The position numbers and the translations under genes were made by a program. The notes below the pieces were generated by a model. The model worked only from the letters and a program-made list of their open reading frames with translations, did not search any database and was not told the origin of the DNA. A stretch of 64,000 nt of DNA, from NCBI RefSeq assembly GCF_000473165.1, contig NZ_KI421504.1, positions 1,084,501 through 1,148,500 on the forward strand. The letters run 5' to 3'. Source of the stretch: Leisingera aquimarina DSM 24565 (GTDB lineage Bacteria > Pseudomonadota > Alphaproteobacteria > Rhodobacterales > Rhodobacteraceae). Of the stretch, positions 35,309 through 61,269 are shown piece by piece; position 1 is the stretch's first letter; each line of letters begins with the position of its first letter.

Positions 35309-36484
<1,176 letters not shown>

Positions 36485-36501
36485 GACGGCTTCGCCGTCT
36501 G

Positions 36502-36546
36502 GCGGGCGGCAGATGGTTTTCCGAAGGAAAATCGCCGAGAGCCCGC
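36502..36546 (+). ncRNA. Structured tuf 3'-UTR element, copy 1
   Basis: Outer stem GCGGGC (36502-36507) with GCCCGC (36541-36546). Internal loop GGCA (36508-36511) opposite GAGA (36537-36540). Inner stem 36512-36522 with 36526-36536, closed by a GAA loop and containing one A-C mismatch. The same architecture with compensatory changes follows tuf copy 2 (61173-61216). It lies between the stop codon and the terminator. A separate hairpin, GACGGC-TTC-GCCGTC, is at 36485-36499. Whether it is a processing site, a stabiliser or a stable RNA is unknown. Confidence 0.6.
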
Positions 36547-36563: not shown

Positions 36564-36591
36564 AAGGGCCGCTCGAAAGAGCGGCCCTTTT
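36564..36591 (+). terminator. tuf copy 1 terminator
   Basis: Eleven-base-pair stem AAGGGCCGCTC (36564-36574) with GAGCGGCCCTT, closed by a GAAA tetraloop and ending in four Ts. The stem sequence is shared with the terminator after tuf copy 2, where the loop is AATC. Confidence 0.92.
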
Positions 36592-36603
36592 GCATTGCGG
36601 CAA

Positions 36604-46157: not shown

Positions 46158-46335
46158 GAACCTGTCTTAAAAAGGGCCTCTGAGGGGGCGTTTTTTCAGG
46201 CGGAGTTCAAAGGATCGGGAGGCTGCCTTCGGGACGGTGGCCATGAATTGATCCGAACGCGCTGTCTCGTATGGGCAAGGTGCCGGGGCCCGGCGGCATC
46301 CTTGACCGGTGAGAACTCGAAAGGTGACATCTGAC

Positions 46336-59985: not shown

Positions 59986-61161
<1,176 letters not shown>

Positions 61162-61172
61162 TTTTGGAAACA

Positions 61173-61216
61173 GTGGGTGGCAGGCGGTTTTCGTTAGAAA
61201 ATCGCCGAGAACCCAC
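61173..61216 (+). ncRNA. Structured tuf 3'-UTR element, copy 2
   Basis: Outer stem GTGGGT (61173-61178) with ACCCAC (61211-61216). Internal loop GGCA (61179-61182) facing GAGA (61207-61210). Inner ten-pair stem GGCGGTTTTC with GAAAATCGCC closed by GTTA. Relative to copy 1, two outer-stem C-G pairs are replaced by T-A pairs, while the internal loop is unchanged. Confidence 0.6.
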
Positions 61217-61232: not shown

Positions 61233-61262
61233 AAAGGGCCGCTCAATCGAGCGGCCCTTTTT
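61233..61262 (+). terminator. str operon terminator (tuf copy 2)
   Basis: Twelve-base-pair stem AAAGGGCCGCTC (61233-61244) with GAGCGGCCCTTT, loop AATC, followed by further Ts to 61262. Confidence 0.93.
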
Positions 61263-61269
61263 CTATGCG

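Follow-up and report, generated by a model that had tools for sequence, protein, structure and literature searches.

Two genes for elongation factor Tu lie on the forward strand of the 64,000-nucleotide stretch of Leisingera aquimarina DSM 24565 DNA analysed here (the window). These genes, tuf copy 1 (35309..36484) and tuf copy 2 (59986..61161), are reading frames of 391 amino acids and encode the same protein. Three hairpins follow each tuf gene on the same strand. Hairpin A sits at the stop codon: at copy 1 it abuts the stop and reads GACGGC TTC GCCGTC (36485..36499), and at copy 2 it spans 14 bp (61141..61171), the last tuf codons and the stop pairing with an inverted copy just downstream. 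It is followed by element B, hereafter the element (36502..36546 at copy 1 and 61173..61216 at copy 2), and by a hairpin resembling an intrinsic terminator (36564..36592 and 61233..61263, respectively). The element is not itself an intrinsic terminator, as a U run is absent directly after both window copies and the terminator-like hairpin is a separate structure downstream. Its 3' arm (GAAAATCGCCGAGA) resembles the coding end of tuf, a likeness judged to be due to chance; an unrelated gene of the genome contains this word as well (L003/L008). The window also holds a separate structured RNA, Rhodo-rpoB (RF03074, 84.5 bits), at 46212..46304, in the gap that separates a probable rplL-like frame from the putative start of rpoB.

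The element is built from a six-pair outer stem, a 4x4 internal loop with GGCA opposite GAGA, and an inner stem. In copy 1, the outer stem GCGGGC/GCCCGC leads into GGCA (36508..36511) and GAGA (36537..36540), and the inner stem (36512..36522 with 36526..36536) is closed by a GAA loop. In copy 2, the outer stem is GTGGGT/ACCCAC, the internal loop occupies 61179..61182 (GGCA) and 61207..61210 (GAGA), and the inner stem (61183..61192 with 61197..61206) is closed by GTTA. The two outer stems differ by two compensating changes, each from C-G to T-A. The original prediction had drawn this two-stem fold after both tuf stops; both copies fold as described, and the unchanged loop and the two compensated pairs can be read directly from the sequence. 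It had also given the inner stem ten or eleven pairs with different closing loops. The loops stand, but the pair count does not hold in full for copy 1, where an A.C mismatch occupies the second inner pair (GATGG against ATCGCC). Because relatives pair GATGG with ATCAT[CT] and GGCGG with ATCGCC, copy 1 resembles a hybrid between two inner-stem types.

Taken alone, copy 2 is markedly stable (z of -5.5, with none of 200 shuffles equally good), and copy 1 is only mildly above its shuffles (z of -1.8; 14 of 200). A structural scan of both strands of the window returned copy 2 as its sole match, compared with a mean of 0.55 matches in 20 windows shuffled in 100-base blocks; copy 1 was not picked up because of its A.C mismatch. 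Two models of the element, R1 and R2, score copy 1 at 67.5 and 68.3 bits (G000:C1:1121000-1121051) and copy 2 at 72.9 and 66.9 bits (G000:C1:1145671-1145721), respectively, both copies being among the sequences from which these models were built.

At the tuf genes of relatives, the element is frequent within the genus and sparse beyond it. A pattern search that tolerated three mismatches at most had matches in 11 of 61 genomes, each belonging to the genus of the window. All 14 of its places lie 3' of a tuf stop codon, with a displacement of about 120 nt in three. Tuf 3' ends were also gathered by the EF-Tu tail regardless of the element; the tail had matches in 88 of 120 genomes of the family and in 17 of 21 of the genus. 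R2 detects the element at 23 of 31 genus tuf ends, the two of the window included (31 of the 32 genus ends were covered). Across the family it does so at 11 of 100 tuf loci, including one in the genome of the window (100 of 110 loci were counted, leaving out L050, L224 and L234-L241). Four looser cases seen by eye were missed by R2 (L038, L041, L175 and L199). A further EF-Tu scan of named genomes yielded 80 loci, few of them from Rhodobacteraceae; among the tuf ends L053-L068, L053 (Leisingera sp. JC1) was the sole one in which the element was recognised by eye. Because its presence is patchy, and because both tuf copies of one congener are without it (G006; L133 and L149), the element is dispensable.

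Several tuf loci carry, downstream of the live stop codon, a displaced second tuf 3' end (GYGTCGAARATC.. or similar; L011, L018, L021, L026, L135, L148, L044, L179 and L272). The displaced copy lies about 85-120 nt downstream in most of them and is closer and tandem in L044, L179 and L272. It is preceded by GATC[CT]CGAGACGC, giving a sense-inverted-sense series. The displaced ends look like the outcome of a snap-back or replacement of the gene end.

The stems of the element covary among relatives. Nineteen sequences were aligned with MAFFT without reference to structure; in this alignment, 98.6% of the 287 cells are paired and 8 of 16 pairs are changed on both sides. None of 500 shuffles reaches any of five measures for this alignment, and shifting the partner by one to three columns abolishes the signal. 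These 19 sequences were picked from 35 available cores for good alignment, and 17 of them come from one genus or a near neighbour; the shuffle test is inflated because of this relatedness and choice. When 39 of the 62 R1 matches were aligned to the model, 97.4% of cells were paired and 12 of 15 pairs showed two-sided change. This larger alignment, the source of R2, excludes redundant genus copies, L147, L163, L164, the doubtful L259 and L267, the reverse-strand match of L016 and a GT variant (L261, L264, L270 and L271). In that variant, found after lepA, lpdA and ettA, a 2-nt GT replaces the 3' GRRA.

Matches to R1 and R2 are biased towards the internal loop, and the claim of loop conservation rests first on the tuf 3' ends that were collected by protein search. 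In 20 tabulated tuf 3' ends, two of them from the window, the loop is more conserved than the stems. Its 5' side has G in 18, R in 20, C in 20 and A in 19, and its 3' side has G in 20, R in 20, R in 20 and A in 19. The pairs adjoining the loop vary (GC, GU, UA and CG), and pairing fails at the second inner pair in 3 of the 20 and at the first outer pair in one. L041 has wholly different stems and keeps the loop exactly. L175, too, has GGCA/GAGA intact between two stems of other sequence, and this arrangement is its minimum-energy fold. Across the aligned copies the loop is GRCA opposite GRRA, with some exceptions. The expectation of an invariant loop within covarying stems, the mark of a selected RNA structure, is borne out by both alignments and by the 20 tuf ends: the stems covary in relatives and the loop stays near GRCA/GRRA. 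The element shows structural constraint. Compensating differences at one site could in part reflect replacement by another copy of the repeat.

The element is not confined to tuf. R1 finds it in 41 of 394 family genomes (E <= 0.01, about 4 genomes expected by chance) and R2 in 91 of 394 (E <= 0.03, about 12 expected), with E-values that are rough and per genome and chance expectations that are approximate. The R1 matches in the genome of the window are the two tuf copies only. In a class-wide sample, 6 of 289 genomes matched, three of them outside Rhodobacteraceae, and about three were expected by chance. The sole convincing case outside the family is G689, with three matches, two of which combine hairpin A and the element after reading frames other than tuf.

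In fetched loci, chosen in part by the analyst, 124 model matches were inspected, 123 of them distinct. In 78 of the 123, the element lies in sense orientation after one of six genes: tuf (31), rplP (17), groEL (16), ettA (7), lepA (5) or lpdA (2). None of the 123 is placed antisense after these genes, the test covering at least 153 nt downstream of each match (less than 300 nt for 23 of the 124). The five names other than tuf were presumptive at first, resting on C-terminal tails, and one locus of each then matched the corresponding NCBIfam family. The distance from stop codon to element is typically 8-35 nt. At the rplP 3' end of the genome of the window, an R2 match is absent. The remaining 45 distinct matches are unlinked to the six genes.

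Hairpin A often accompanies the element. A perfect abutting hairpin of at least 6 bp is found at 53 of 67 distinct gene-linked copies, 24 of 52 copies in other contexts and 289 of 2380 shuffles. As at tuf copy 2 of the window (61141..61171), this hairpin often consists of the last 12-17 nt of the gene itself and an inverted copy after the stop, for example after lepA (L304 and L264), rplP (L310, L334 and L305) and tuf (L262). Tandem copies of the element also occur, such as four after groEL in L268. Other copies lie at genes for stable RNAs: next to or between the tRNA-Ile and tRNA-Ala genes of rRNA operons, after tRNA-Leu and tRNA-Arg, after SRP RNA (L314 and L337), near 5S and 23S rRNA (L303 and L318), and beside or inside the RNase P RNA stretch (L320 and L308). 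At L308:1254-1304, the RNase P RNA match encloses the element, which runs on the other strand and may extend a peripheral helix of that RNA. Copies near tRNAs and in insertion sequences (IS) occur in both orientations.

Shorter copies have moved into transposons. Weak model matches in the genome of the window are short hairpins within transposon genes, and versions of about 40 bp with the same loop interrupt IS genes at sites that are empty in relatives (three inserts). An IS5-type gene of this genome carries a 40-nt and a 39-nt insert; Leisingera sp. M527 has the second only, and in Roseinatronobacter sp. S2 and Pseudosulfitobacter pseudonitzschiae the site is empty for both. An IS3 gene carries a 45-nt insert that is missing from Sulfitobacter sp. 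W027. The pattern TGCCCGRCRG N{8,34} GARAGGGG is present in 20 of 21 congeners, with 47 matches in the genome of the window, 58 in G002 and 45 in G003; the reversed control pattern gave no match in the congener genomes. Many of the 47 are repeats of one IS with identical inserts, so independent insertions number fewer than 47. A palindromic core is present in 28 of 31 pattern matches (30 fetched loci). Seven frames, chosen as transposase-like from 31 insertion contexts, belong to families of the types Y2_Tnp, DDE_Tnp_1_5, DDE_Tnp_IS66, rve and DDE_Tnp_1; other contexts (for example, L367, L368 and L391) are near the ends of other genes.

The inner palindrome GGCGATT..AATC-T-GCC is common to genus groEL 3' copies (L290 and L293) and IS copies (L285 and L287). 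Because they have the loop, the fold and inner-stem sequence in common, the short mobile copies and the 3'-UTR copies are tied together, probably as one family. The 5' flank of the short copies tends to YCCRC before TGCCC, and clear target duplication was not seen at three junctions. Inserts in rve-type (IS3) transposases leave the reading frame open (L379 and L386), and those in L288 and L349 bring stops or frame shifts. In IS5-type genes, inserts recur at particular points of diverged transposases, near LL[VI]D/STG (L288 and L349) and after GEWNARK (L349, L353 and L371), suggesting preferred insertion sites in these genes.

A Y1 transposase (PF01797) is encoded in 4 of 20 element-bearing genomes chosen by the analyst, among them that of the window, which has three such genes. 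Of 9 Y1 loci, 3 have short copies at a distance of 0.15-1.3 kb, in G003 and the genome of the window: about 145 nt upstream of the Y1 match in L353, about 270 nt and 1.3 kb downstream in L354, and about 0.9-1.0 kb downstream in L349, where they sit in a neighbouring IS5-type gene. A local link of short copies to Y1 genes within the genus is possible. A general RAYT/Y1 mobiliser was rejected, since only those 4 of 20 genomes carry Y1, even though copies are found near 3 of the 9 loci.

The reading we prefer, to which we give a probability of roughly one half, is that the element is a dispersed palindromic repeat of Rhodobacteraceae with mobile short copies, whose 3'-UTR copies are selected as RNA structures, most likely for a function at mRNA 3' ends. 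The family signature is a hairpin foot with unpaired GRCA on the 5' side opposite GRRA on the 3' side, closed by a second, covarying outer stem. Copies of about 40 bp have moved recently, interrupting transposase genes, and other copies have their place just 3' of stop codons, in sense and mostly between the stop-codon hairpin and the terminator. Genes hosting the 3'-UTR copies are usually highly expressed. These copies are likely to act at the RNA level because of their placement after the stop, their sense-only orientation, their position before the terminator and their covariation, and selection would have retained them as transcribed structures. We infer that the element protects or processes mRNA 3' ends: as a 3'-end structure of abundant mRNAs, it would slow decay from that end or fix a processed one. 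The internal loop could be bound by a protein that reads GRCA/GRRA.

The element might instead be purely selfish DNA, a stem-loop with unpaired feet that serves as a recombinase or transposase site, its fold kept for mobility and its 3'-UTR copies functionless. The insertions with empty sites, the dozens of pattern matches in some congeners, the several IS families hit, the patchy presence and the short copies near 3 of 9 Y1 loci all speak for this account, and in having unpaired feet the element is reminiscent of IS200/IS605 and REP elements with their guide tetranucleotides (PMC8266576). It does not readily explain why copies after the six genes are exclusively in sense (78 versus 0) while those in IS and near tRNAs run both ways, why the same few genes are hit repeatedly across genera, or why the stems are retained at tuf throughout the genus; and just 4 of the 20 chosen element-bearing genomes have a Y1 transposase. 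We hold it doubtful as a full account, though worth keeping in mind. Spread via transcripts is a further reading: entry in sense only, often together with a snap-back copy, is what an RNA or cDNA intermediate that primes itself would be expected to leave, and not a DNA transposase. The hairpin would then enter in sense at the 3' ends of abundant RNAs, often with an inverted snap-back of the last 12-17 nt of the gene, and the host would later have adopted it as a 3'-end structure shared by genes for translation and folding. We regard this scenario as quite unlikely.

One RNA-binding protein or small RNA could recognise the GRCA/GRRA loop and co-adjust the mRNAs of a translation and folding regulon, as the recurrent hosts tuf, rplP, lepA, ettA and groEL and a loop conserved beyond its stems would suggest. 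Such a regulon appears unlikely, given that the element also follows lpdA, is found inside IS and at the genes of several stable RNAs (tRNA, rRNA, RNase P and SRP RNA), and varies in membership among genomes. The original prediction favoured a regulatory or processing element specific to EF-Tu mRNA, in keeping with its presence after both tuf genes of the window and, more widely, at 23 of 31 genus tuf ends. That specificity did not survive: the same element follows other genes and occurs as inserts, R2 matches only 11 of 100 family tuf loci, and both tuf genes of G006 go without it, leaving the EF-Tu-specific account very improbable. A recent duplication of the tuf 3' region followed by drift, with incidental pairing, would draw on the fact that tuf copies can share sequence; in G007, for example, the two tuf stops are followed by the same 150 nt. 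Covariation across sequences and an identical loop within wholly different stems contradict it, and differences across genera exclude it as the only cause of the similarity, so that its probability is close to negligible.

The dispersed repeat with selected 3'-UTR copies connects two phenomena usually treated separately: a covarying RNA structure carried at their 3' ends by the mRNAs for EF-Tu, L16, GroEL, EF4 and EttA, and a mobile palindrome that disrupts transposons. Its internal loop is a testable candidate binding site, and its presence or absence at both tuf copies within one genus supplies natural pairs for measuring an effect on EF-Tu mRNA. It also raises the question of how a 40-bp hairpin spreads without a known enzyme.

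That no described family is known to match the element, as originally noted, agrees with the comparisons made here. Rfam returned nothing over the element at gathering score in the window and 11 loci; sub-threshold matches, such as those to STnc250, RT-12, ncS01 and mir-981 (the last on L267), lay on the terminator or spanned the element and were judged to be chance. The literature searched, a body largely without subscription journals, does not describe it, and no description was found in the available parts of seven papers (PMC3733652, PMC2873474, PMC6209633, PMC8266576, PMC2229807, PMC2864571 and PMC8632094).

REP elements are palindromes of 20-40 bp, one end of which bears a short unpaired tag; they occur mainly downstream of genes, sometimes inside them, and protection or definition of mRNA 3' ends has been hypothesised for them (PMC3733652). 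The main text of that paper, figures aside, is without the words Rhodobacter, Ruegeria, Silicibacter and Paracoccus. Like REP, the element is a short palindrome with many copies per genome (47 pattern matches here), mostly downstream of genes (78 of 123 distinct matches, in sense). Unlike REP, it has GRCA/GRRA feet in place of a GTAG or CGTC tag and keeps a second outer stem. It differs from GTAG REPs in lacking a consistent RAYT/Y1 partner (4 of 20 genomes), and CGTC REPs were set aside because their tag and tail differ from its own. The element is not filed as REP, as it has neither the tag nor the general transposase partner of the tagged REP families.

The RUP of pneumococcus is a MITE-like small repeat in transposase genes of several IS families, and Rickettsia palindromic elements (RPE) measure 105-146 bp (PMC2229807). 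Like RUP-type MITEs, the element interrupts the transposase genes of several IS families with short inserts, cleanly and with empty sites in relatives; unlike them, it is about 40 bp long. Target duplication is not clear at three junctions. With RPE it shares being an alphaproteobacterial palindrome inserted in genes, the frame staying open in two inserts (L379 and L386), whereas other inserts bring stops or frame shifts (L288 and L349). Like Rhodo-rpoB and HRC-8-4, it is an RNA structure confined to Rhodobacterales. However, Rhodo-rpoB is a separate element in the same window, and HRC-8-4 is a terminator-like stem at cco genes (PMC8632094). The element is best called a new sort of dispersed palindromic repeat with a conserved internal-loop signature.
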